A DNA stretch of 25,342 nucleotides from Ectocarpus siliculosus. Its lineage: Eukaryota; Sar; Phaeophyceae; Ectocarpales; Ectocarpaceae. The notes under the pieces were generated by a model. The model was not told where the DNA came from. It searched no databases and worked only from the letters and a program-made list of their open reading frames with translations. The translations under genes were made by a program, and so were the position numbers. This document shows, piece by piece, positions 643-25,342 of the stretch. Positions within the stretch are counted from its first letter, which is position 1. Every line of letters starts with the position of its first letter. The stretch lies in assembly GCA_000310025.1 (NCBI GenBank), contig FN649743.1:3712005-3737346 (forward strand), written 5' to 3'.

Positions 643-3600
643 CTGAGGGGTAAAGGACGGGAGAGAGAGAGGGGGGGGGGGGGCGGGGGGGAGGGAGGGA
701 GACAAAGAGAGAGCGGGAGGGAGAGAGAGCGAGAAACAAGAAAGAGAGAGAGACACACACACAGACAGACAGAGACAGAGGGGAGGGGAGAGAGAGCAGA
801 AGCGGAAAAGGGAGAAGGGGAGAGGGAGAAAACGAATGAAAAGAGCTGTGGCAACTGACGATGTGCAAAAGAAAACCCTGTGGATTCTACAAGCTGCCTC
901 AATCACCAGTGGGAAAGACTGACTGCAAAACTGCAACCAGTGCAACTCGACGAAGTTTCTCGCGTTGTTCTGAGGGCCCACAAAACAAAAATTGAGTCTC
1001 TTCGTCCAAAAGCGTTTCCGACAACAGTTACAATTTCCCGTTTCATGTAGCACCCAACAGGTGTACATGGCGCGGCCGGTGCTGACTGCAGCATTACATA
1101 GGCTCGAATGACGACTTGGATTCGACTAGAAGGGGCCACTGCACACGGCTGCGGCGCGATTTAGTCCTTGCCGAGGCCAAAAAGGGCACACAAAACACTG
1201 CAGTATTGAACACTCTGAGCGTAGCGAGTACTACAAATAAATATATTGGTGGTAATGTTGTATGCACCTGCTGCTGCTGCTGCTGCTGCTGCTGCGCCGT
1301 CGCGGTACCTACACCGCCATCAGCAGGCACCGGAGCCGCGCCCACCCCCCCCTGGTGCTGGTGCAAGTACTGCCAAAGCTTCTCCGGCGGGGGGCACCGT
1401 ATCTGCACGATGGTGAGCCGGAAGTTGTGCCGCTTGCCACCGCTGCTCACCAATCACATCGTTCGCCGCCAGGATGTTTGGCGTCAGGGGTAGACGGAGG
1501 GGAGCAAATAACGGTCAAAAGACTTGATAGCAGCACATTTTGTGACAACGCCAAAACGTTGATCACAGCAATCGATCTGGCCTCTCGCCCGACGACCTCA
1601 AGGGGAGTTTTACGGTCACAGCACAAACAGGTGTTCTACCTCTTCTTCCGAGACAGTTTTCGCGAAACAAGATTGCAAACAAAAAACAAGGAGGAAAGAA
1701 CGGCAGAGAAAAAGGAGCTAACCAAGGGCCACATCTCGAACGCCGCATACAAACCTGACGGCCACATATTGAACGATGCATCATCGCACCTGGAGCCGCA
1801 AGACAAGTAGATCCGCATCCCGGAGTCGGTTACTGCAACAAGTGCGACCGTCTTGCTCTCCGTTGCAGGCACCACTCCCAGAGAAACAATCTGCGTTTTT
1901 TGTTTTTTTCCCAACGGGTCGAATGGAACGGATACTCAAGGTTGCTGTCGCCGTTTTCTGCCCTTATGCATGCGTAAGGGTATGCCCTCAAAAGACGTCG
2001 GTATCGATGCTGAAAGAGCACAAGGACAATGATCTCCTGTGGTCACATTGCCCGTATGCATGCATTAGTTTTGGTATGTTGTTCATGTAGTCTAGGCTCG
2101 CGACCAACAGCAGCCGGCTACCCTTGTAGGTATAATCCATTCTACACAGAGAAGTGCTCACCTGGTGCTGCTTGGGGTCCTTGAAGGTCAAGTGGGACAG
2201 TCCGCTCTGACCGTTGCCATAGCCTTGGCAAAACCTGGCTGCCCTTATCCAGATATTGAACACGTTGTTCTGGAAGCAAAGCCACAGAGGACAAACAACA
2301 GAAGGGGGACAAGCAGACAGTAAGAAGGAAGGAACATAGAAGCTAGTCTCTTAAAAACATGGACACAACAGCAGTATACCGTCGCACCCGCTTCAAGGAC
2401 AACGTAGCTTTTCCAGATGCACGGTGCCTGGCAGGAACAAAAACAACAATAGGGAGGGGAACAAGAAAAAGAACCGCGCAATGGACACTATCCTTAGGAC
2501 GTTTCCTTAAAAGCGAGAACAACATAATAGACACCTTCTGGGAGCGCCGTGGGGACAAACAAGAGGTGCACCACAAGGTCACAAGACACAGACACAATAC
2601 CACGATGCCCAACTCCCGCGGGAAAGACGGCTTCTGTGGTCCACCCTTCTTGCTCTCATATTTCCTGGCGGTCTGATCTCTTGCTTTTACATTGGCAGAG
2701 GCGTTGTGATTCAACCGCAATGGGCGACCATAAGGAAACGCAAACACAAACCGAAGCCACACAACAAGAACGCCGCCGCCGCCGCCGCCGCCGCTCCTAC
2801 CGGGTACGGAGAAGGACCTACCTCCTCGCAGCGCTCTCAACCATGCCCTCGACACCCACCCACGCATATCGAAAGGTCGCGACAGACACCACACCGCCGG
2901 GGACATAATCTCAACGCTTGAATACTCCGCGACGAACGAGGGCAAAAAAAAAAAAAAACGGTAAGTTTTCGGGAAAGCTCTCGACGAGACGGTGCCAACG
3001 CCGCCAACGCCGAGAAACGAATCGAGCTTCCAAAACGGTTCCAGGAGGAAAAGTGGGGTGTGGCATCTCATGCCACCTGCTGCTAACTTTACGGTGGTGT
3101 GAACCAGGGAAAAAAAAAAAAAAAACGAACCATGCCTTCTGGGTGGTGCTGTTCCCATCAGCTCCGAGGTCGAACAGGTCTACATCCCCCGCCAGGTCGA
3201 GCGTGTAGAGAACGTTCCTGAGGGGGTCCACCACCACCTCCACAAGCACCCGCTCCGCGCGCCGCAGGCCCAACAGGGCAAACATCGAGTTCACGGGGCC
3301 TGGCCCCCCGCTGGAGGACTTGTGGGCGAGCCGGCTGCACTGTCGGGAGGGGACCGGGCTGCCCACCGAGAAGACCGAGTACCAGAAGCCGTAGGCCACG
3401 CTGTAGGTGAGCTCGTACAGGTTGCCGTCTTTTCCGGCCATGAAGACCCTGCCGTTCGGGTGCGCCGCGATCTTGAGCATGGAGACGCCGTCCGTCGAGG
3501 CCCGGAAGTTGGTCCGTCGCACCTAGGTTGTTCGGTGGCGGTGGTTGGTGGCGGTGGTGGTAGCGTTGTTGTTCTCGATAGTTGGTGTGTGGATGTTTTT

Positions 3601-6600
3601 CAGTTACTACTGCTGTTGAGTGTTTGTTCGTTTTTCTGTTATTATTGCTGCGGTTGTTGCTGTTGTGTTTTTGCTACTGGTTGATAATGATGCTGCTGCT
3701 GCTGCTGCTGCTGCCGCTGCCGCTGCCGCCGCTGCTGTTGAAGCGTCGTTGTTCATGATCCTGTGGTTGTCAAAACATTGTAATGATGATGGTACCGGTA
3801 CTATCGTTTAGGCGCCCTTGCTGCCGGGGGGGGGAGCGCAGAGTAGAAAATCGTGTTCGCATTAGTATCCCCATGTGAAACTGAGGCACCAACTATTTTC
3901 GTTGGCCAGCCGGCCATAACGCGGTCGATGCCAACGACAAAACGCACACACACCTGTATCCGTCGGTTCCTCGGACTCCCGGTCTCCTGCGGTTTCTCAT
4001 GGTACGTTACCGCGAGAAGGATCACCTCTACCGTGGTCGCGACCGCGAGAACGTGCTCCACCTCCTTGTTGAATACGCCCTTCTTGGGGGGGACCAGCGC
4101 CACCGTCACGATCACCTGGGACCCCGGTTTGCCATTGCGTGGGGAGGGGGGGGGGGGGGTATTCTTATGTTTTGTGGTTAGACGATTGACCACGCGTCCT
4201 CGAGAGGACGGAGGGGGCGGGGTTCAACAAACGCAGGCAGCAGAGAGTTGGACCACGGAAGGCACCACCCGCTCGAAAATGTTTCTTGCGCTGCATCGAA
4301 AGAGGACGCCACTTTCCCCCGTGTGTCTGCTGCAAAGGATCGGTTCTTCTCACACTTGAAACATGTTCGCATGAATACCACCCTTCTAAAATACGCCGCA
4401 GTTGCGTAATGATGCGTCTACACCGCTGGGACTTGGGGGAAAAGGTTGGATTTTTCAGGTGGCCGTTCGTCTTTCGAGTGTATTTTTCGGTCGGGGGGGT
4501 CCTTCCTCCCCTGTGTAGGTGCAACACGGTCGGTCTAGCCTACATGAAAGGTGACTCGACAGAACCGCAAACACGCAACACGAACCAACAGCAGATGACC
4601 CACTGCTGTGTGGAGGTACCCCTCGTCGGGGACGCGCAGCGTAACGTTACGACATGCAACAACAACAATAATTCAGTGGAAAGGCTCAAATAGACTCACG
4701 ACATGCAAGAACAACAACAACTCAATGTAAAGGCTCAAATCGACATGCAAGAACAACATCAATTTAATGTAAAGGCTTAAAAAGACCCAAAACAAGCCCA
4801 GCAGTATCCAGCAGGTTTGTGTCCCACCCACACCGCAAAGCCTTCAACACATCCCGTTAGACTACTATGACACGGTGGATATATCTCCAACAGGTGTTCT
4901 TGCTGTGATGGTAAGTGGTACACTTTTCTGAAAAAAAGAAAAAAGAGGGCGGCGGCGGCACGCACACACGCGTCGGCACCTGCTCCAGCTCCCTGAACTG
5001 CGTGAAGTCCTGGGTGTGGTAGTTCCAGAGGTAGAGCACGTTGTCCACCGTCATCCACGCGTGGTCGATCTCCGGCAACAAACCCATGAAGGTCATGCAC
5101 TCGACGCGGTCTCGCTCTCGCGACAGGGCCTCCGGCAGCATCGCGAACGACTTCGGCTGTATCTACGCCGCCGGAAAAACGCGTTCGCGGGAAGAAGGTA
5201 GTAGGGATGACGATGGGACGGTTAGGTTCCGGCTGGCTGCAGCAGCGGTTTGGATTTCCATTAAATTCACGGGGGTTTTCCAGTCTCGGCAGAGGGCCAA
5301 TTCATGTTCGAGAAGAATGTGGGTTAGGGCCGCGGCGGGGAGAGGGGGGTAAACGCATGCCGTCGTCGTTAGAGACCACAGACCTCGCATCTACCTCGCA
5401 CCTACAATACGGGGACGGAGCAACACGCCGGGTTTTCGCTAGAGATGGGCACCGGACGTGAAAAAGCAATAACCGATAACCGGCTCGGAGGCGTTATTCT
5501 CAAAATCCAATAACCGGTATAACCGGGTTTTTTCAGCCCCGGTTAACCGGTTAACCGGATCTGTAAGGAAACGCCTCCGCAATCTCTCAAACTTGGGTCT
5601 GTTTTGTGGGTTTAAACGGCATGCACGCCACCTTTTAATCACCCCGTCCGTGTTCCGCCGGTGTATGGCGCAGTACTTCACTCACACGATGTACTATAGT
5701 AGTGTCAGAGAAGAGATGGGCACCAGAATGGAACAACCAATGAGCAAAAACCGGCTAGGAGGTGCTATTCTCAAATAAAAAACCGCCGAATAACCGGTTT
5801 TTCAGCGCCAGTTGACCGGATAACCACCCGGTTAACCGGGGATAGCCGTTTGAAAAACGCCTCCTTTCCCAAATAACTCCGTTTTTTTTAGATGACCGTC
5901 ACTCATGAACGCCTGCTGGGTTTCCAAATAACCAAGTATTACCGGTTATTTTTCAAACGGTGCCCATCTCTAGTTTTCGCCGGCCCAAGCTACGTTTGAC
6001 GAGAGGATGAACCAGAAGCGGGGGAAGGGTAGATGGGGTAAAAGAGGGGCTTCGCCACGTACGTATATATTCATGCGTGCTGACAGTGAAGTCTTGTACG
6101 AGAACACCGAACTTTGGCGTGTAAGCATTGGAATAGGGGATCCTGTATCGTCTGTGGTTTGATGGCTAAAACTCCCCCCGGCTGATCATAAGCGAATGTT
6201 CCTCGAAGGAGGATCAGCAGTACTGCTGTAGGAATTGCGTAACGAACAGGACTTGAACACAGCTGCAATCGTTTTCCCAAGGAGGATGTAAACGCGCAAA
6301 ATGCTGCAGTTATTACGGAGCATATCCGATGTTCATTTGGGTTGCAGAGCAACGACGTCGCCGACTATATTCGTGAACCCTGAACCCCGCATGTTCCAAG
6401 GGCGCAATTCTCCCCGCAGCTAAATAGGTGTGACTCTTGCGCAAAGATAATGAGGCGTGCATACATAGTTGAGTGAGAGGGCAACGCCAGAAAACAGTTG
6501 CAATCAGCATCACTACTGCTGTAGGGGGAATTGTCTCTGTTACTAGTCTGGTGTCCGCTACTGCTGGGGTCCTGTGGCACCTGTCTATCCGTGCCTTTCG

Positions 6601-7549: not shown

Positions 7550-8865
7550 GTGAGCTGAAAAAGTACAACTTGTTTTTGATGACCATGAACTTACAAGCGA
7601 GGGGCGAGAGATGCGAAGACTCGCCCCCCCTTGTTCATTTGCGCCCGGCTCCTCTTTTCTCTCCACCTTTGGCCGTCAGTTTCTAAATCTCTCCGCCTAG
7701 GAGCATGGTTCTTAGCATAGTCTCTGAAGAAAATCAGAACCGAATCTGCGCCCGCCGCCGAGCCGCCAGATTGTTCCCGGCAAACCCGCTTGCCCGTGCC
7801 CCTAGCGTTGTATTCACGCCGGGCTTCCTGATAGAAGTCTCGAAACCGCAGGGCGTCACATTTGCTCCATACAGATGTGGCACCTCGGCTTGCCATTGAG
7901 CTCAGGTTGGGGTCTGATTTTCTTCTACTTGTACGGGGATCCTTCGAACATGCTCGCAGGCGGAGAGATTGAGTCACTACCGCAACAGGCGACGCCAACA
8001 ACAGCCTCCCGCTACCACCTCATCTTCCGCCATCGCTGCCGTCACCACCACCCCCCCAAGTCTACTCAGATGGATAGTTCAACCTGAGCTTGATGATCGT
8101 GCTTGCAGTGTTTCCGTGCGTTTTAGCGCTCGCGACACGAGACTACAACCACGCACGCGTCGCGGCCATGTCCCATCGGGGGATGCGCAAGTGACGCCAT
8201 AATACTTCATTCATTGTTTGGGTTCGATAAAGCTGGGAGGCCAAGAGAACCCTGCAAAACATGGTATCGAGCGCTTGGAGGCCAATAACCCTGCCCGTTG
8301 ATTTTTCGGCGGCCCACCACAAACGTCCGTAGATTTTCACCCACTGTATCCATGCATGTACCTCCAATTAGACGCAGAATATGCGAATGATCGGTGTTTG
8401 TACTGTATGTACGATCCCCATTTTTGTGCTCGCCATATGAAGACGTTCAACACCAAAAATTCGTGGGCTTATTGTGAATCCAAACGTGAGCCGTGTGAAA
8501 GGGGTCAGAAAAACAATGGTGGTGGGGTTGGCTTGTTTTGAACAGGGAGCAACACGCGACTAACCCTAACCCTAACCCTAACCCAACCGCAACAAGAAGA
8601 GCAACAAATTGCCGCCCACGAGAAACCATGCACGGTACTGTACTGTAATGGACAACGAACTCTCGGCGATTGGTCTTCCGTTGATAGCCATGTTAGAGAT
8701 CAACAAGCTCGGTTGACACGGGGTCATCAATGCGTATTGGGTCTTGGTCGACGAGTACCTGAATAATCCCTGCCCTGAACACGCTTACCGTGCCTGCGAC
8801 CACAACAGACAACATACGCCGAGTCTTGTAGCAGGGTGACGGAAGCGATCTTCCAGCCAAGAGAG
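7550..8865. other. Probable intron or intergenic sequence
   Basis: Several short open frames exist on both strands (for example 7591-8001 minus), but none has consistent third-position GC, good splice sites and sensible composition together. It contains the interstitial telomere-like tract at 8561-8584. No gene is claimed here. Confidence 0.4.
8561..8584 (-). repeat. Interstitial telomere-like repeat (TTAGGG)4
   Basis: Four consecutive TAACCC units on the plus strand (TTAGGG-type on minus). TTAGGG is a telomere unit used by many eukaryotes, including reported brown algae. Ordinary sequence and genes flank it on both sides, so it is internal rather than a chromosome end. Confidence 0.85.
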
Positions 8866-9415: not shown

Positions 9416-10001
9416 TCCACCACCGTCGGACCCGCGCTTCTCCACCGTCACGAGGATGGAGCTCACCAAGTCCGTGCATACCCCGGGCTACGCCATCCGG
9501 CGGCCGAAGGAGGGCTTCGACCGCCTCAACGCAAACCGCACCAACTACTCGCTCGGCCAGCACCCGACGACGGAGCTGAAGACCGCCACGGCGGAGCTCC
9601 AGATGAAGCATCCTCGCGACCAGCCCCGCGTGGACCAGCCCGCTGTGGGGGGATCGACGCTCCGGGACGGGTCCTACCGCCTCGACACGTCCGCGAGGGA
9701 CAGCGTTCGGCGCGGGGGCGGCGGCGGAGAGGGGGTGCTCGGGGTGCGGTTCGATGTGATCAACGGGCGGGAGGACGAGGGCGCTAGGGGGAAGGTCGCC
9801 ATGCGAACGGGGCCGCGGCGGACGCTGAACAACGCGGAGAAGGAGGTGCTTCATCCGACGGACGGGTGGGGGGACGTTCCCGGGGGGATGTACGTCGACA
9901 TCTTGACGGGGAAGGACAGGCGGAAGTTCGACGTGCCAGAGCGAGGGGCTGGGGCTCCCGTCAGGAGTGATACCGTTTCGGGGAGGACGCGCCCTTGGTA
10001 G
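9416..10001 (+). CDS. Unidentified small basic protein, terminal exon
   Basis: This is a clear coding exon. The frame is open from before 9416 to the stop at 9999-10001, with strong GC preference at third positions. If read from its own ATG at 9456 it gives 181 residues. If joined to 8866-8912 through an AAAAG acceptor at 9415 it gives about 210. Visible blocks are KSVHTPGYAIRRPKEGFDRL, NRTNYSLGQHPTTELKTA, MKHPRDQPRVDQP and PTDGWGDVPGGMYVDILTG. It is rich in charged residues and Pro/Gly, with a Gly-rich spacer near residue 90, and has no signal peptide or membrane segment. I do not recognise the family. The repeated short Pro/Gly/Arg turns are reminiscent of cytoskeletal or axonemal accessory proteins, but that is only an impression. 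Confidence 0.75.
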
Positions 10002-10684: not shown

Positions 10685-13600
10685 CTATCCTAGCACAGAC
10701 TTGATCGTGGCCGTCTCGACCCAAAACTCCGCACATGCCTGCCTAAAGCTTAGCATGGTCTCGTAGGCCCCCTTCCCGGTGCGCTCCATCGCCCACGCCA
10801 TTGCGACGGCACCTGCCTCGCCGCCGCACCCGCCGCCTACGCCGGCAAAAAGCACCCTCGGCCCGGTGGCAAACTCCGCCACGTCCCGAACCAATCTCGC
10901 CGCACTCGAGGGGGGCGAAGCCCCGCCGGTTTCCTCCCGACTTCGGTCCTTCTCCGTGCGGACGGAGACGCTCAGAATTCGAGATTTTTTTCCCGGCGTT
11001 CGGGAGTCTGACTGCTGCTGCTTAGACGTGGCCGGGTTGCCGTAGGTGGTGTTGACGCATACGATGTGGCTGATGCCGAGGGCCGGAAGAATGATCCCCA
11101 GGGGGGCCATCTCGTCTACCGCCAAGGCTGACGTCCCCCCCGCGGCCGCCCCCACGCAACAATCTCGCCACACTGTGGTGTTGCAGCACACCATGGTTTC
11201 CGAGCCCAGCTGCTGCCGCGCCGGACAAGCTGCTAGATTCTCGCCCTTACCTCTGATGCAGTCGCCGCCGCCGCCGCCGCCGCCGTCGGTTGGACCGTTA
11301 AGGGCCAGGAGGAACGCGCCGGTCCCCAACCGGTGCAAGCATCCGTCGCACCCTAGAACGCCCGACTGCTGTTTTGCGGCGAAGCTCCGGAGCGCGCCGA
11401 CGGTCGTGGACGGGTGGAACGGTGCCCGTCCTGCCGCCGCTTCTGTCGTCGCCTGTCCTCCGGACCCCCTTCCGCTGTGTGCTACGACCTCTGTCTGATG
11501 TTCCACCTGCGAGTGTTCCCCGCCGGGTGAGTCTCCTTGTCCACGAGGCATGCTGTGTGTGTTGGCATCGGGCGAACCCAGAGATGTGGCGGATTGATTC
11601 TTGGTCTTTGGTCGGGTTATTGTCGTCGGTGGATGCTTCTCGCTCCCGACGGGGAGGCTAGACACGACCGCCGTCAGCGCTTCGTCAACAACGCTCACCA
11701 CTCGGAGGGCGCTCGGTCGCTTGGCGGGGTTACGCACCAACATCGCCTCTAGGAGAGTCTTCACCGCCTTGGCGCAGCCGAGAGCGGCGAACGGGCACAG
11801 GCTCAGTGGTGGTGGCAACGGGGGTACCGACGCACCCTCAGCCACAGGAACCGTCCCGTTGCCAGCTCCGCCAACCACTTCGCCCGCCGTCAGGGTCACG
11901 AAAAACTCAGACCATTGCAGGTCTCTGAACAGGGGCTGCATAGAGAGCAGCTCGTACAGTAGACACCCAAGCGACCAAACGTCAGATGCGGTGGTGATTC
12001 CCCCAGCCGACTCTCCTCGGTCGGCACCCACAGCGGGGTCCGCGCTTGAAGGTCCACCACCACCGGTGCCGCCACCGCGTCCCGACAGGAGAACCATCTC
12101 CGGACTCTGGATACGTTCGGTTCCACGTGAACCACGCACGTCAAAAAAGAATTCATCGCCATTTGTGGCCGAGCCCGGGTCTGGCCCCGCAGCCGCAGGG
12201 AAGGCGTCGGTTGCCTTTGGCGGGCACCTCCGCCGCCGCCCGACGATCGCCTCCCCGAAGTCGGTTACGCAGACGGACGGCACTATATCCTGCTCCATCG
12301 CCAAGACGGTTCTGAGCCCTGCCGCTGTTGGCGAAGAGGTAAGGCACTCGTGGTACTCAGTCCTGCTGCTCCCGCCGCGAACGAGGACATTGTCGCACTT
12401 GAGGTCAAAATGGATGACACCCCTCGCCGCCATCGCACCCACGGCGGCGACGATTTGCCGGAAAACGGCGAGGTAGAGGGCTACCTCTGCGTCAGAACGA
12501 GGCCCACACGGAGACGTGCTTAGATCGTCTTTGTCGTTGTCGCTGCGCGCGGACCGCCAGTCGTTCAGGCTGCAAGCGCACCTTTCTAGGACCAAGACGT
12601 ATGACGTGGGTGTAACGCCGAAGTCGTAGAGGCGGCACACGCCGGGGACGTCGGCGAGAGCGCGAAGCGCGAGGGCCTCCAAGAAAACGTTCTGGCCCAC
12701 AGCGTCGTCCAAGTCGTCCCTTCCTATCACCTTCAAAGCAACCTCGCCCTGTTCGCGGCCACTCTTCGACCGTCGCGGCGGGACGCTCAACGAGGACTCT
12801 GCCAGCCTTGTTGGTGATTCCAGTCCATCTTCCTTTCCGGCAGAGGAAGGTGTGGAGGATGCTTGTGCTGACGCTAGATGGTACCGACCACCACCAAGCG
12901 GAAGAGGACACTCGGATACGATGACCCCGCCAAACCTTCCTGCCCCGATGTGATCCCCGTCGAGAGAGTAGCTCTGCGCGTCGAACAGCGCGGTGCAGAC
13001 TAGCTTCGCTAACACCGCCACCTCTGGGTGCCACTGCGACCTCAAGCTCGGAACGATGTGGGCGTTTCGATCGCTGTCAAAGAACGCTCTCAGCGAAGCA
13101 ATCTCCACCGACCCCCTGGCCGACGTCGGCGGCAAGATGTGCTCCCACGCCGGCGAATTGCCGTGGCCGCTCGGCGCAGTGGCCATGCACAGAAGAAGTT
13201 CGACGGCGTAGCGTTGGATCACGCTCAGATCGTTCTCGTAGTTGACTCGAGGCAAGACCTGATTGTTTTTGTCGTCGTCTCGCAGCCGCACTGCTTCCTC
13301 CTCCGACATTCTCTTCGCCCCTTGTGGGTGGCCCCCTGCCCCCGCGTCGCGCTCATTGTCCGTTTCGACTTTATGTCTCCTGCATTGGGGAAGCTGTCGT
13401 GGTGAGCGAGAATTTCCCGCCTCCGGCAATGGAACTCCTTTTTCCGGCCTCTCCTCCTCCTCCTCTCCTTCCTCTTCTTCTTCATCTTCATCTGACGACG
13501 ATTCTCCGTCGTTTTTGAGCAGCCCCGTGATCTCGCGTTCCGTGACTCTGCCACCGCTGTCCGCCATCGGGGGGCGGGTGTCGGATAGCACGGAAGCGCT

Positions 13601-16600
13601 GCGTACCATGCTGAAACCTCGCGACGACGAGCCGCCGCCGCCGATAGCGGAAGGCCGGTCGGTGAACAAGGGCGGGCGTAGAACTCGCGAGCTCCGCCCG
13701 CTCGGGAACACCGCTGTGGACAGCGACGCCTCGGAGCGCGAACCTGCCGCGCCCCTAACCGTGTCTAGAATGCGCGCCCCCCCCGTTGTAGGGGTGGATA
13801 GCGACGAGCCGGGGCCGAGCTGTGACGAAGAAACCCTCGTCCGAAACACCGGGGACTGAAGGTCTATCCTGGGCACCACGGACATCGAAGCGGCGGAATC
13901 GGCAGCGACGGACGGGCGTCCGTTGTTGCTGACCGCACTCGCGTCGTCCAACACGCTTTGTATTACGAAGTACGCGTCGTCGTCTTCGCTGTCGGCCTCG
14001 GCAGCACCAATGCCGCCGTCATCAGCAGCGATCGCTGTCGCAGGAACGTCGCCCCCCCCCTCAAACATGGTGGCCACGGTGGCATCCCCGCCCGCCCATG
14101 CACTTCTGCGGGCTCCACTTTCAACGGGCGCGTTTCGATTACCGTGTGACGAACACTCTTTTCCCGCTACGGCGTCAGACCGCTTGGTTTGGGTGGCAGG
14201 CGGAGGTATCACGCTGTTCGTGACATCTGAAGTCGGCCTGGAAGACACCCTCGGCTTTGACTGTTCTTTTGTCGTCGCCAGCTGGTGTCCACCTTTCTGC
14301 GTGGCACTAGCGGCCGTCCCCCCTCCCGCGGGCCTTGGGAGTGTCGAACGCGATCGACCCTTGACCCTCTCGGTGTCCCTTTTCCGGCTAGGGCGCAACT
14401 CTGCGGGATCCTTTCTGATCTCTTCGTCGCCGTCGTCGAAGCAGACGTGCACGGTGCCATCATCCCCGTTCATGCCCGCAACCCGCCCCGGAAACCACCT
14501 CGGCCTCCCGCGTTTCACGGACACGAGGCCGTCAACCCTATCCCCCACCGACAAAGAAGTCGTGGCATTCTCCGCGACGGCGCTACTGGAGCTGGCGCCA
14601 CAAGTTTCCGCGGTATCTGTTTTCGCGACTTGGTGGGTCGGAGAGGTGATGCCTGACCCGTTTACGGAAGACAGGTGCTCGGCGGACGGGCTGCGTGACA
14701 GGGAGCTTCGCGACGTCACTGTTGCGTCACAGCACGATGAATTCTCCACTGACCCGTGGACGGGTCTAGGTGATTTTTTTGTGGTGCCTGCCGCGTCGCC
14801 ACCCACTCCAAGGACGCGTTCTACTAAGAACGGTGCCACGCGGCAGTCGTCGAGCCGCTTCCGGACCGCCGCGTCCTGCACTGCTGCGAGCTCGACCAGC
14901 GCTTCGAGATGAAGGCGACAAAGAAGGACACTGCCCCGCCGCCTCGCGGCGGTGCCCTCCTGCTCTGTCTTTGGCTCATTCCGCGCCGCGCACGCAGCTT
15001 GACGCACCCGCTCGCTCGGCGGGGCCTCGTGGCTACCTTCAGGCTGAGATTGTCCGAGCAAGGCCTCACATTCTTTACGGAAACGCGAAAAGAGTGGGTC
15101 CACGAAAGCTTCTAGGCGCACCAGATCTTGCTCCTCGCGACTGGGGGTTCTCCCGTAAAGGGAGAAGTATGCAGCGCTCAGCCGCACAGCCGCCGCCGCC
15201 GCCAAACACGGGGAAGGGATCGGGCTGCCTACGTCAGGCTGTTTGGTTGGAACGGTTGCCGATGTGTCTGTCGCCTCTTCGATACTGGACCCGCTCTGAA
15301 GAGGTGTGGTCATCATCTTCAGGATTAGTCCGTCAGGTCGAAAAATGGGGGCCATTTCCCTTGCGACTAGAGCAGCAGCTTTTGATATTTCTTTTTCGTC
15401 CTTGTCCACCCTCTCTGGTACCGCCGAATCTGAGGTTTCTTGCAGGGTCTCCAGCAAAGTTCCAGCTCTGCGCACAATAGCTGCAGAACTCCCGAGCAGA
15501 GAAAACAGTAGCTCGTCCATAACATCTCCACCCCCAGTCAGTCTTCTTTCCAGGGCTTGAGCCCCTTCGAGCAGGGTGTGACCACCATGTGCTTGTCGCC
15601 AGTGTTGTCCTGCTTCGGCCCCCACCCCCTGTGAGGCATCTCCGTCTTCGGTAGATGTCACCGATATCAACTGGTTAAGCAGCTCCACTAGCACCGGGAC
15701 AATCGCGCCTTCACCGTCACGACGAGAAGCAGCCGAGCCGAGCGTGAGTGCCGCCCAGGCTGGGTTCTCGCCCCAAGCTACCGGTTGCCTCACAAGGACA
15801 ACCACCAACCTGGCCAGGTCAACAGCGGCCGGAGCGGTTAGCAGCAGCGACTCTTCCGCGTGCCCACTGCATCTTTGTGCCATCTCTGCAGAATCTTCCT
15901 GAACCTCGTGGTTGTCGTCGGACCGCCCGATATCGTAGCTCGCACCCGAAGAACATGTGCAGCGGAGGCCACGCTGTAGCATCTCGAAGGCGCGGCCGCA
16001 AAACCGTAAGGCATCGACACTTTGTTCCGCGGAAAGCACGGACCGCCACTCGCTGTTGAAGGCACCAGCGGCGAGTACCCTCCGGAGGAACAAACGGGTC
16101 ATCCACCCGCACTCCAAGCCCAGCCTGCACGCGTTGTGCACATGGCTTCGGTGTGACTGGGATGTCATCTCTTCGCCACACTCGTCGTGGTCAGTTCGTT
16201 GACACTGTACCCGTAGCACCGACAACCGGCGGTCCAGGTGGACCTCTCCCGCTCGTGACAGCAGCGCGATCCCGACGTTATCGAGCTCAAGCGGCCAAAC
16301 TGAGGGCTCACGCCGGGTATCGTGAGGACCGGCGTCGATCCTCCTGGCGTGGCCCACCACCGCCGGCTTGCTGCCACAGGTGGTAGTCACAGGTGCCGTT
16401 GCCCAAGCGTTGCCGTCGGTCCACGACAACGCTCCTACAAACGAGAGAACTTCCAGAGCGGCAACAAGTCTGTCTTCGGGATCACGCTCGGCCGGCGTCG
16501 ACGGGAGAAGGGACAGCAACATCTTCGCGATCGCAACCGCGGCCCCGAACACATGTGCGGTGGCCTGGCGCTTCTGCTGCGCCCGTGACGGCCGAGACAG

Positions 16601-17656
16601 CGGCGCAAATACCAGTGCCGAACCACGAGCCAAATCGACAACCAAAGTCACCGGGGAGTCATACGTCGGCAGCGCACGCAGGCTCCCGTGGTCCACTCTA
16701 TCCGAGTTCTCAACAGCCGGTGGGTGGTTTTGCGAACGGACGCCGTCGGAAGGCCCCTCGAAAGTGTCGCCGGTGATGGCGGTAGCAGATGGCGTGGATC
16801 CCGGTCTACAGTCCGGGGTGCGGTCGACCTGCTCAAGGGCGCCATTTTGCGTTGCTTGGTGAGGGCTGTGCCTGGCAGAGTATCCGCGACCGCCATCTAC
16901 TACCGGAGGCGATAACACCAGATACCCACCTCCAGGCTCTGTGCTGTGCTCGGCATACCCAGGAGCGGGAGACTGTTTGGGCGACGCCGGTGACGCGCGG
17001 GGGGAAACCCGGGCGAAGGTGGTGCCGGAAGTGCATGGGCTATCTCGATCGACGGCCACACTTGTAGCTTCTGCCGCCGTTCTCGTCACCGGGAGTTCCT
17101 CGAGAGACAAGCGAGGCATTTCTTTCCTGACACTGACATATCCTCCGCCGTGCGTCGCCGGCACGACGGTGTCTGCCGTGTCAGAATTGTGAAGGAGATT
17201 GCCATCATCATCCTCAATGATGCCGGATCCGTCAGTTTTGCCCGGTGCTTGCTCCACCGCCGGTGGAATACTGCCACCGCCGCTAGCCGCCCTCGTCCCT
17301 ACCACCACACCACCACCACCTCCCAAACACATTTCATCTCCACTAGCACCACAACGTTCACCATCGCCGCCACCATCACTTCCTCCACTACCCACTTCTT
17401 CTCCGCCACGCCCGTCATCACCGCGGACAGGGTCCCTGTCATTCGACAACAAAGGCTGGGGCAACGGCAGCGGCAGCGGGCAAGACGCCGCCGCATCCAC
17501 ATCAGTCACGACGGTAGGCGAAACACTTCGAACGGTCGGACACCCGGTCGAGGCTGTCCAGTCTCTCTGGGTTGTGCGACCAGTGCGCAAGGAGCACCCG
17601 CTGCCATGGCGAGCGGAGGCCCGGCTTGTTGCCCCCCGTGCGCTCAAGAACGTAGG
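10685..17656 (-). CDS. Giant kinase gene, last exon: Tudor-like, kinase and pseudophosphatase-like domains
   Basis: This is a 6,972-base uninterrupted exon from a CACGCAG acceptor to TAG at 10687-10685. Residues are numbered from the TTG at 17647. Helical blocks lie around 360-720. A Tudor-like segment is at about 1030-1088 (VGDRVDGL, PRWFPGRVAGM, DGTVHVCFDDGDEE). A run of Asp/Glu is near 1385. The kinase domain is about 1560-1990: glycine loop GAGRFGGV, VALK lysine K1639, helix-C glutamate in NVFLEAL, HFDLKCDN with D1748 and N1753, DFGEA with D1796, SPE with E1850, DVWSLG with D1889 and the late arginine R1977. HFD replaces HRD, so this is a non-RD kinase, yet all catalytic residues are present. 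After about 2160 the text follows a DSP fold but lacks its cysteine. Confidence 0.85.
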   Translation of the reverse strand, partial: PTFLSARGATSRASARHGSGCSLRTGRTTQRDWTASTGCPTVRSVSPTVVTDVDAAASCPLPLPLPQPLLSNDRDPVRGDDGRGGEEVGSGGSDGGGDGERCGASGDEMCLGGGGGVVVGTRAASGGGSIPPAVEQAPGKTDGSGIIEDDDGNLLHNSDTADTVVPATHGGGYVSVRKEMPRLSLEELPVTRTAAEATSVAVDRDSPCTSGTTFARVSPRASPASPKQSPAPGYAEHSTEPGGGYLVLSPPVVDGGRGYSARHSPHQATQNGALEQVDRTPDCRPGSTPSATAITGDTFEGPSDGVRSQNHPPAVENSDRVDHGSLRALPTYDSPVTLVVDLARGSALVFAPLSRPSRAQQKRQATAHVFGAAVAIAKMLLSLLPSTPAERDPEDRLVAALEVLSFVGALSWTDGNAWATAPVTTTCGSKPAVVGHARRIDAGPHDTRREPSVWPLELDNVGIALLSRAGEVHLDRRLSVLRVQCQRTDHDECGEEMTSQSHRSHVHNACRLGLECGWMTRLFLRRVLAAGAFNSEWRSVLSAEQSVDALRFCGRAFEMLQRGLRCTCSSGASYDIGRSDDNHEVQEDSAEMAQRCSGHAEESLLLTAPAAVDLARLVVVLVRQPVAWGENPAWAALTLGSAASRRDGEGAIVPVLVELLNQLISVTSTEDGDASQGVGAEAGQHWRQAHGGHTLLEGAQALERRLTGGGDVMDELLFSLLGSSAAIVRRAGTLLETLQETSDSAVPERVDKDEKEISKAAALVAREMAPIFRPDGLILKMMTTPLQSGSSIEEATDTSATVPTKQPDVGSPIPSPCLAAAAAVRLSAAYFSLYGRTPSREEQDLVRLEAFVDPLFSRFRKECEALLGQSQPEGSHEAPPSERVRQAACAARNEPKTEQEGTAARRRGSVLLCRLHLEALVELAAVQDAAVRKRLDDCRVAPFLVERVLGVGGDAAGTTKKSPRPVHGSVENSSCCDATVTSRSSLSRSPSAEHLSSVNGSGITSPTHQVAKTDTAETCGASSSSAVAENATTSLSVGDRVDGLVSVKRGRPRWFPGRVAGMNGDDGTVHVCFDDGDEEIRKDPAELRPSRKRDTERVKGRSRSTLPRPAGGGTAASATQKGGHQLATTKEQSKPRVSSRPTSDVTNSVIPPPATQTKRSDAVAGKECSSHGNRNAPVESGARRSAWAGGDATVATMFEGGGDVPATAIAADDGGIGAAEADSEDDDAYFVIQSVLDDASAVSNNGRPSVAADSAASMSVVPRIDLQSPVFRTRVSSSQLGPGSSLSTPTTGGARILDTVRGAAGSRSEASLSTAVFPSGRSSRVLRPPLFTDRPSAIGGGGSSSRGFSMVRSASVLSDTRPPMADSGGRVTEREITGLLKNDGESSSDEDEEEEEGEEEEERPEKGVPLPEAGNSRSPRQLPQCRRHKVETDNERDAGAGGHPQGAKRMSEEEAVRLRDDDKNNQVLPRVNYENDLSVIQRYAVELLLCMATAPSGHGNSPAWEHILPPTSARGSVEIASLRAFFDSDRNAHIVPSLRSQWHPEVAVLAKLVCTALFDAQSYSLDGDHIGAGRFGGVIVSECPLPLGGGRYHLASAQASSTPSSAGKEDGLESPTRLAESSLSVPPRRSKSGREQGEVALKVIGRDDLDDAVGQNVFLEALALRALADVPGVCRLYDFGVTPTSYVLVLERCACSLNDWRSARSDNDKDDLSTSPCGPRSDAEVALYLAVFRQIVAAVGAMAARGVIHFDLKCDNVLVRGGSSRTEYHECLTSSPTAAGLRTVLAMEQDIVPSVCVTDFGEAIVGRRRRCPPKATDAFPAAAGPDPGSATNGDEFFFDVRGSRGTERIQSPEMVLLSGRGGGTGGGGPSSADPAVGADRGESAGGITTASDVWSLGCLLYELLSMQPLFRDLQWSEFFVTLTAGEVVGGAGNGTVPVAEGASVPPLPPPLSLCPFAALGCAKAVKTLLEAMLVRNPAKRPSALRVVSVVDEALTAVVSSLPVGSEKHPPTTITRPKTKNQSATSLGSPDANTHSMPRGQGDSPGGEHSQVEHQTEVVAHSGRGSGGQATTEAAAGRAPFHPSTTVGALRSFAAKQQSGVLGCDGCLHRLGTGAFLLALNGPTDGGGGGGGDCIRGKGENLAACPARQQLGSETMVCCNTTVWRDCCVGAAAGGTSALAVDEMAPLGIILPALGISHIVCVNTTYGNPATSKQQQSDSRTPGKKSRILSVSVRTEKDRSREETGGASPPSSAARLVRDVAEFATGPRVLFAGVGGGCGGEAGAVAMAWAMERTGKGAYETMLSFRQACAEFWVETATIKSVLG

Positions 17657-20600
17657 CTGCGTGCGTGAGAGAGAGGGAGCGGAGCACGGAACGGTAAGAG
17701 ATCGGTGGTTCTTGTCAAGAATGGGGAACCAACGACACAGATGACCGGCGAGGTGGAGTCCTACAGGTACATGACTCCCGCCTTATCCCGGCGGTGCGAA
17801 ACCGAGGCAGCTCGTTGACGAATCACCTCGGTTGTCTGGGTAGCACATCATATCGTTCGCGGATCGCCACGCCTCGGACGCATCGCAAGTCAAATAGACT
17901 AGATATCGCAGCAGGAAATGCGGATGCAATCACGACCTAGATCACAAACCAATACCAAGAGCCCACAGCAAATTGTCGAATTGTATTAGTGTTCTAGACG
18001 GCGTTCTGATACTCGGGCTGACCAGGCCATTGGTCCCATGCACGTAGTGATGGTGTGACTGCTATAATTGATCGAAATCATTGACACAAGGCCGGTAATG
18101 GGGTAACCGAGCAGGGAATAACACTCACCAGATGTTCCGGCGCCGCCCGAGTAGAAGCCGTGGACAAGGTTACCGCCGCGCGCTGCGAACTACCCCGTGG
18201 AGACCCCCACTCTTTGGTGGCGAGAATCGAGTCCAGGGCGTCGAGCCGTAGCATCGGCGGGGAAATCCTCTCCCGGTGGGCGACAACATCAGTGCCGTGT
18301 CCGGTCCTCCGCTGCACTATCCCCTCACGCTCCCGGTGCTCTGATACGGAGGGAGTCGGCACGGATTCCGATCCGAGGCTGTCGTTGCCGGCAGCGACGT
18401 TCAGGCAGTCGTTGGCGTCGTCTTTTCGGCTGGTGTCAGGTCCACGGCCCACTCTTTCTCCCTTGCTGTCGCCCGACACCATCCTGCAGCTCCTCCCGGT
18501 GCTACCTCCGTCGGCGCTACCACCACCGGTTTTGAGCGCGTCCTCGAAGGCATGATCAGAATGTCTACAACATGCTTTCCCCCTCCTTTGGTGGAAAATT
18601 AGCCACCACGGAAGTCGTTGATCACGAGGGTCCGCTTCAGGGGAGGAGGATGCACCACCTTCTTCTTTTATTGGCCGGATAATCGCCCCGATGGTGCCGT
18701 GGGAAGGACCGGAAGCATTGGCGTCACCGTCGGGGAGGTTGGTCATTCCGCACGGAGACGCGTTCCCAGTGCACGGATAGCCCGTGCTATGATGATCGCA
18801 CAATTCCTCCTCTTCCCGAGCGGATTTCATCTGCACCAAAGCGAGGTGCAAAACGTCCGCCAGATGCCGTACCAAGCCTCGCTCGAGAAAGGCCGTCTCT
18901 ACCGCGGGGATTTCCAGCATCCCTTCGAGGAGAAATCTGGGAGCCTCTCGCAGGAGGGGCAAGGTACCCTGCCCCCCGCCGTCGTCGCAACAAAATGGCG
19001 CCGCGGCCGCGCAGAAGCCTTCCCACCACCGACCGAGAACAATCGGCGCCTCCTTGTCACTAATTCTGGCTGTTCCTCGGTCTGGTGTACCGTTCCCGAA
19101 CACCCTGGCCAGCAGGGCACGAGCCGCACCCGCGGCACAGACCGCTGTCGTCTGTGCCGCATCTCCTCGGGTCTCAGCCGCCGTGCGGCAACCGCCGTCC
19201 TCCGGTCGGCACGCCGCGGCTAACACCGCCCAGACGACTTCTCGCGTCGAAGCCCACCGTATTGCCTGGTCCAACGACGCCGCTTGCACCCCGCGTACGG
19301 TGAGAGCGAGCTCTTGTGGTTCCTCGGGCTGATAGCGAGTGCTGACCCCCCCGGCGCGTGGCGCCGTGGCAGATGGCGGCTCGCGTTGGCTGGGTTTCCT
19401 TGAGCCTGCGGCGCGTCTGTCTTCCCGTACAGGCTGCTCGGGGCCGAGCAGGCGTTTACCCCGCTCGTCTTCGAATCCGATGTCTTCTCCTACGTCGGGG
19501 ACGACTTGATTCGCGCCTGCTCGGTGCTTATGCCGCCGGCGCCATCGGCTACAGATTCTGGAAGAAAAAAATTTTCCTGGGCCGTTCAAATCGGAAAAGC
19601 AGAAAGCCGACCATATTTCCGCAGGAAACGTTGTGATGCTTAGTTGAAGTGTTGCCAACAATGGGTGAGAACAGGGAGGCATGGTTTTCATTCACCCTCG
19701 GAGTAAAAAGGTCCAAAATTTAGGTGGCCTAACTATCTGTACTTCCTACGTTGACTTTCCTTTAAGGCCTGAACCTCACGGCGCGACTCTGGTGTCTCTC
19801 CGCTAGAAGAAAGCCGCCGTACATTGATTCGAGGGGGGCCAAAACCGGCGCCATAACTACCCCCATCCAGATCTATCTGATGCCTGAGCCACATCAGCAA
19901 AAAAAGCAAGTGCTGGATGCAGAGCCATATGCAAAACCCATGGGGGCACCACAACCGCAAACCTCACCCCCCGGGCTTGGCGACGGCGAAGTGGCCTCCT
20001 CCAGCAGATCGGCGTAAGCCACCGGCAGAGACAGATAGCGTCTTGTGATCTTCTTTGCACTTGCTCTCTCGGTATTAACAGCTCTACTGCAGTCTCGGAA
20101 ATCGCCGTCCCCGCGAAACACATCTAACTCCTCGAGGACATACCGGTGCCGCACAGCCAGCGTGCCGGTGCCGCCGTCTTCTCGCTCAAGTCGAGCCATC
20201 ACTACCGACGCTCGAACGCAAGCGCGGCCACTGCTGCCGACATCGCTCGCGTGACCCCCGGTGACAGCACGGGGTCCTGCGGGGCCTAGCCGGGCAAAGA
20301 CTATGCCTGCCACTCGTGGGATCACCACGTAGCTCTGCCGGTCCTCGTTGTCGCCGCTGATTCGAAGGGAAATCTCCTCGGCTAAGGGCCTGGTGGCCCC
20401 GCCACTCTCGTTTGCCACGCAGTTGCCGTCTCTCGCCATCTCCCTGGCTAGTGTTGGAAGCCCTGGTGCCACGGAGTCTTCCAAGTCGCAGAGAGCTTCG
20501 AACCCCTCCGCCGGCAGTGTCCAGGACTTCTACATCAAAGGTTGCATTGGGGGAGGGGGGAGATACAAAAAATATTCAGTGGCGGCGAGGCGAAAGTGGC

Positions 20601-25313: not shown

Positions 25314-25342
<29 letters not shown>
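25314..25342. repeat. G homopolymer at window end
   Basis: At least 29 consecutive G residues close the window. In the sense of the flanking minus-strand gene it is a poly-C intron tract. Runs of this length are often mis-sized or mark an assembly edge. Confidence 0.9.

Follow-up and report, generated by a model that had tools for sequence, protein, structure and literature searches.

A very large kinase with a possible degenerate phosphatase tail in Ectocarpus siliculosus

Ectocarpus siliculosus (Phaeophyceae) carries a gene on contig FN649743.1 that raises the question of whether a kinase ends in a dual-specificity phosphatase (DSP) domain that no longer catalyses. The window, meaning the whole stretch of DNA that was analysed, contains 25,342 nucleotides (assembly GCA_000310025.1, positions 3,712,005 to 3,737,346 of the forward strand). 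An earlier note, made from the letters of this window, proposed an active-looking kinase with a built-in pseudophosphatase and regarded the arrangement as undescribed. Positions given below are those of the window, and all features of the kinase gene are on the minus strand.

The open frame and its kinase domain

Positions 10685-17647 (minus strand) form a single open reading frame of 2,320 codons from the first start codon, including the stop, or 2,365 codons counted between stops. In the other five frames, stop-free stretches reach at most 537 codons. All motifs quoted in the earlier note fall within the 2,320-codon frame. This frame probably forms the last large exon, with more of the gene upstream. 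A 537-codon frame at 18078-19691 would join it once an intron is removed. This probable intron of 472 bases (17657-18128, GTGAGT...GCAG) is in phase 0 on both sides, and its splice junctions read CTG/GTGAGT at 18128 and GCAG/CCT at 17656. The probable upstream exon of the same gene then covers 18129-19691 (minus strand), with a phase 0 junction and a provisional 5' end.

Third-position GC is 0.61-0.72 in the 80-codon bins from aa 1521 to 1921, 0.59 in the bin from aa 2001, and 0.75-0.79 in the bins from aa 2081, 2161 and 2241. The tail of the protein therefore appears to be coding.

A protein kinase domain is certainly present. It extends over approximately aa 1561-1990 (11678-12967; edges set by eye) with low-complexity insertions, and matches Pfam PF00069 in two stretches (query aa 1510-2010) with an E-value of 1.1e-19 and 71.3 bits, against a curated cut-off of 31.7. 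The same region matches the PHROGs serine-threonine kinase family phrog_2361 (E 4e-7), and its best PDB sequence match is TTK (E 3.3e-5). The five motifs on which the kinase assignment had first been based are all located by position. These are the glycine loop GAGRFGG (aa 1568-1574, 12926-12946), VALK with the ATP-binding lysine (aa 1636-1639, 12731-12742), the catalytic loop HFDLKCDN (aa 1746-1753, 12389-12412), the DFG motif within DFGEA (DFG aa 1796-1798; 12248-12262) and DVWSLG of subdomain IX (aa 1889-1894, 11966-11983). In the catalytic loop, HFD replaces HRD, and the catalytic Asp, Lys and Asn are all kept; this form is common in plant Raf-like kinases. IQSPEM (12095-12112) is assigned by eye to the place of the APE motif, with SPE for APE, and the late Arg of the kinase is present in NPAKRPS. 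The glycine loop, the VAIK Lys, the HxD Asp, the DFG Asp and the subdomain IX Asp are thus all found. Because the catalytic motifs are all present, the catalytic centre is likely intact and the kinase likely active, in agreement with its earlier description as active-looking from its residues.

The rest of the protein carries long inserts outside the tail. Pfam searches find no LRR in either of the two frames (2,320 and 537 codons) at E ≤1, or in aa 1-1508 at E ≤10. An Agenet/Tudor-like stretch lies at aa 1025-1095 (14363-14575; PF05641, E 0.0024, 18.7 bits, cut-off 27). Six Pfam families match these residues at E 0.0024 to 0.058, each under its curated cut-off.

No tRNA and no match to an Rfam family were found in the window. 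A 203-aa frame at 2911-3522 (minus strand) resembles the Nup133 N-terminal family (PF08801, E 3e-11) and marks a nucleoporin-like gene in the left part of the window; together with the likely spliceosomal intron, it is indicative of eukaryotic DNA. A 181-aa frame at 9456-10001 (plus strand), without a Pfam match at E ≤1, adjoins the 3' end of the kinase gene. Five copies of CTAACC, the complement of a TTAGGG-type telomeric repeat, are found inside the window at 8560-8588, and a 42-base tandem repeat is present in about three copies at 4648-4795. The last 29 bases of the window (25314-25342) are all G, perhaps a sequencing or assembly edge.

Sequence and predicted fold of the C-terminal tail

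The kinase domain is followed by a linker with approximate boundaries (aa 1991-2118, 11294-11677) and by a C-terminal alpha/beta region (aa 2149-2320, 10688-11203), which two low-confidence models and the profile comparisons described below mark as a possible degenerate DSP. Family searches do not place this tail. Pfam, NCBIfam and PHROGs contain no match to aa 2005-2320 at E ≤10, so that the curated cut-off of PF00782 is not reached, and aa 2010-2320 have no PDB sequence match at E ≤10. The filters of HMMER discard most matches above E 0.1, which bears on these family searches. With HMMER, a first-round DSP model scores -1.7 bits on the tail (E 0.14 for one sequence). An hhalign comparison of the tail with five DSP rows, one of them the analysts' own consensus, gives a probability of 1.8% over 19 columns from LGISHIVCVN onward. 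Scans of viral contigs return no relatives with the kinase plus tail, the tail alone, the kinase alone or a typed DSP consensus as the query, and tblastn of the kinase plus tail against phages and plasmids returns no match at E ≤1.

One element of the proposed resemblance to a DSP is LGISHIVCVN (aa 2190-2199, 11051-11080), which by its position and the DSP-profile alignment is the proposed counterpart of the DSP strand 'LGITHVLNV'. RILSVSV (10961-10981) is the proposed next strand and is a strand in neither model. ILSVSVRTEKD starts at aa 2224, RVLFAGVGGGCGGEAGAVAM at aa 2264 and AWAMERTG at aa 2284. The proposed place of the P-loop is occupied by RVLFAGVGGGCGGEAG (10811-10858), a glycine-rich segment. 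Here A-G-V-G-G-G-C-G-G stands against H-C-x-x-G-x-x-R-S; the His, Cys, Arg and Ser are lost and the Gly is kept. Throughout aa 2005-2320 there is no HC, and the HCxxGxxR P-loop is absent. The claim that the catalytic Cys is missing from the proposed P-loop is thus borne out, and the Arg is absent as well. If the DSP fold is granted, the tail would therefore be a STYX-like pseudophosphatase. GGC-like codons follow one another along the DNA of the loop, and this coding suggests that a triplet expansion may have overwritten the active site. An unspliced intron that breaks the P-loop was considered and rejected; the GT...AG there spans only 28 bases (by eye), probably too short for an intron.

Two CX5R strings occur in aa 2005-2320, at aa 2100-2106 and aa 2155-2161. 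Both are away from the P-loop place, and in both the Gly position of the motif holds another residue. The second reads CNTTVWR (11165-11185, minus strand) and lies between a predicted strand and a predicted helix. Shuffles of aa 2005-2320 contain 0.64 CX5R strings on average, and 48% of them have at least one.

Two AlphaFold models were made without an alignment, the first of aa 2119-2320 (pLDDT 40.7, pTM 0.41) and the second of aa 2149-2320 (pLDDT 43.0, pTM 0.38). Neither has any residue with pLDDT ≥70. Both consist of one or two early strands, helices, the strand HIVCVN, a helix, the strand VLFAG, a loop and two helices. We take this order to be that of the DSP fold apart from two elements: ILSVSV is not modelled as a strand, and WRDCCVGA, at the place of a DSP strand, is modelled as a helix.

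Foldseek searches of the PDB return three matches for the first model, none of them a DSP. The second model has 55 weak matches, of which none reaches E 0.001. The top match of the second model is the FAD domain of a P450 reductase (E 1.6). The best 50 of the 55 rows include 16 FNR/P450-reductase, nine ornithine carbamoyltransferase, nine chalcone-synthase-like and eight DSP-linked rows. Among these best 50, 4jmk, 7ncy (twice), 4b04, 1ohe and 9nym are DSPs by title, and 4yr8_H and 8otz_m are from entries whose other chains are DUSP16 and DUSP21. In BFVD, the second model has one named DSP at rank 4 of the 20 matches listed (E 1.9), and none of the matches is significant. The Foldseek matches are weak evidence because the models have low confidence. 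The predicted structures thus reproduce a DSP-like order, at pLDDT 41 and 43, but the fold search yields nothing significant for the proposed phosphatase fold.

Profile comparisons of the tail with DSPs

A position-specific profile was built from 34 DSP sequences, comprising 30 prokaryotic domains (L001 and L003-L031) and four PDB chains, and was aligned end to end to the tail. The domain L002, a second copy of the place of L001, was left out. In the genome of L002, which includes a contig from a Chlamydiae MAG, a frame of 516 aa contains a DSP (E 1.6e-18), and PF00782 occurs at E ≤0.001 in 129 of the 232 genomes of its phylum.

The 34-sequence alignment places LGISHIVCVN, RILSVSV, a helix, VLFAG and the next helix as they had been placed by eye. 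The tail has a Z of 3.5-4.0 against its own shuffles, and 9 of 4,000 shuffles reach its score (Z 3.7). None of 175 control stretches, each likewise compared with shuffles of itself, reaches Z 3.5; when the comparison was repeated with a smaller number of shuffles for each stretch, one of 159 controls lies above the tail. After correction for composition, the tail exceeds all 39 stretches of the same protein. Raw profile scores were rejected as sufficient, as 20 of 120 stretches from neighbouring frames equal or beat the tail; none of 77 stretches of the same protein and none of 42 from the other frames of the window do so.

The signal depends on the choice of profile and gap costs. The 30 prokaryotic rows alone, in the same alignment, give a Z of 3.64. 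The four PDB rows alone give 0.78, and 41 of 159 controls are as good. Strict gap costs lower the Z of the tail to 1.75, and four other settings give 2.84 to 3.83. With an automatic DSP profile (29 of the 30 loci), the Z is 2.20, below the highest value (2.79) among 20 other stretches of the same protein. A panel of seven alpha/beta families ranks DSP first on the tail at 2.20, followed by rhodanese (1.96), LMW-PTP (1.21), acetyltransferase (0.58), response regulator (0.36), NADP-binding (0.28) and carbamoyltransferase (-0.45). Two segments, LGISHIVCVN and the helix that follows the loop, contribute much of the DSP score. When LGISHIVCVN is kept and the rest is shuffled, 31 of 2,000 sequences are as good as the tail. 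LGISHIVCVN is the element that first drew attention to the tail, and a correction for the choice among many folds would leave little. The DSP layout reported for the tail is thus beyond chance with one profile (the 9 of 4,000 shuffles) but unclear with two others and under strict gap costs.

A positive yardstick consists of 20 weak PF00782 matches (E 5.6e-8 to 9.9e-7), hand-picked from the weaker matches listed. Five of the 20 are over the Pfam cut-off and 18 contain a CX5R string. Their Z is 5.6-19.4, and with the P-loop included all 20 exceed the tail. A comparison that is fair to a pseudophosphatase blanks the nine P-loop columns, and the tail then has a Z of 3.3; five of the 20 yardstick matches are lower and one of 159 controls reaches the tail.

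We tentatively prefer, at a little under an even chance, the reading of a very large kinase with an intact catalytic centre and a small alpha/beta tail, the latter most likely derived from a DSP and with catalysis lost. The tail is probably folded, and its identity as a decayed DSP is possible at a little under even. A quite possible alternative is that the tail is a lineage-specific small alpha/beta or helical domain other than a DSP, which serves an ordinary large protist kinase as a C-terminal extension for docking or autoinhibition. Its DSP look would then come from a strand, glycine loop and helix element that is common to many Rossmann-like folds. The absence of a significant family or fold match for the tail is consistent with such a domain, as are the fall of the DSP Z to 2.2 or 0.8 under other profiles and the other families among the best 50 of the 55 Foldseek rows, where FNR/P450-reductase (16), ornithine carbamoyltransferase (nine) and chalcone-synthase-like (nine) rows stand against eight for DSP. 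This alternative does not account as well for DSP being the best of the seven families; the NADP-binding and carbamoyltransferase families, with scores of 0.28 and -0.45, do not fit the tail. In addition, most elements, beyond a single one, are in DSP order in both models.

The glycine-rich runs, the pLDDT below 70 throughout both models and the long inserts elsewhere in the protein would also suit a tail that is largely low-complexity or disordered, open only through high GC and functionless by itself. Such a tail is improbable, as predicted helices and strands alternate in both models and third-position GC is 0.75-0.79 across the last 240 codons. The 34-sequence profile points in the same direction, with a Z for the tail that none of the 39 stretches of the same protein reaches, although with the automatic profile the tail is not above all 20. 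A very improbable reading makes the tail a phosphatase from a different class whose active site has moved, for instance to CNTTVWR at aa 2155-2161. This is one of the two CX5R strings found in aa 2005-2320; in the second model a strand immediately precedes it and a helix spans it. The string is nevertheless rejected as a real active site on its chance frequency in shuffles (mean 0.64; 48% hold at least one), the loop without Gly, the lack of a His before the Cys and the LMW-PTP Z of 1.21.

Under the preferred reading, a very large regulatory kinase would end in a DSP-descended, catalytically dead domain whose pocket may serve as a docking or phosphosite-binding module. The pocket could act in cis, on the phosphorylated loops of the kinase itself, or on substrates in trans, the mode of STYX-type proteins. 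The tail may select or shield phosphosites, as had been supposed, and would in this way govern which substrates the kinase retains. A fuller scheme, rather unlikely when taken as a whole, is a kinatase of reversed polarity in which a live kinase has its own phosphosite reader made from a decayed fused DSP with the P-loop overwritten by GGC-triplet expansion. In that scheme, the retained dead domain would hold a phosphorylated substrate at the kinase, leading to processive or primed phosphorylation by one polypeptide.

Comparison with known systems

Arabidopsis PHS1 has a kinase-like domain and a DSP in one protein. It would resemble the Ectocarpus protein in this pairing if the Ectocarpus tail is a DSP, and differs in having an active DSP and a kinase of the atypical actin-fragmin type. 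PHS1 is treated solely as a DUSP in the available part of one source (PMC9224382).

The pairing of kinase and DSP is published, so the architecture that the earlier note considered undescribed is already known. Kinatases of kinetoplastids contain a DSP, two pseudokinase domains and LRRs, and the available text of the same source lists proteins with kinase and phosphatase domains in Giardia, Tetrahymena and Dictyostelium (PMC2175518). A novel kinase with a DSP domain is described in Dictyostelium in the accessible portion of another paper (PMC1420674); it has the domain pair proposed for the Ectocarpus protein and is likened here by that description only. Among stramenopiles, oomycetes have kinase-phosphatase fusions, but the phosphatases in the available parts of the sources are PP2C/PPM and one PhoD, not DSP (PMC3019232, PMC10925823). 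Table 2 of the former, on accessory domains of Phytophthora infestans kinases, contains PP2C and no DSP (PMC3019232).

STYX has Gly in place of the catalytic Cys, according to the part of the source at hand (PMC3507883). The Ectocarpus tail likewise has Gly for the catalytic Cys at its P-loop, if its alignment is right. STYX is clearly a DSP by sequence (2r0b, E 3.3e-31 with a generic DSP query), whereas the Ectocarpus tail is not, and unlike STYX the tail is also without the P-loop Arg.

If the tail is a DSP, a close likeness is with the kinetoplastid kinatases (LmjF.34.2190, kin), which, in the available text, combine kinase and DSP domains in one large protist protein (PMC2175518, PMC13210143). 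The LRRs of the kinatases have no counterpart by Pfam in the readable part of the Ectocarpus gene. The kinatases have an active DSP and kinases that are judged inactive in the portion of the source available (PMC2175518), whereas the Ectocarpus protein has an active-looking kinase and a tail without the Cys and Arg. The possible new part is this polarity, in which the kinase is live and the DSP dead; the literature searched, of which coverage was partial, yielded no fusion of an active kinase to a pseudophosphatase. Should the tail prove not to be a DSP, the protein would be a large protist kinase of the ordinary kind that has a C-terminal extension of its own. As a dead DSP, the tail would make the protein the mirror image of the kinetoplastid kinatases, with their inactive kinases and active phosphatase as given in the available text (PMC2175518), and it could be used to test whether proteins that fuse a kinase to a phosphatase tend, time and again, to lose one of the two activities while the dead half is kept for binding.
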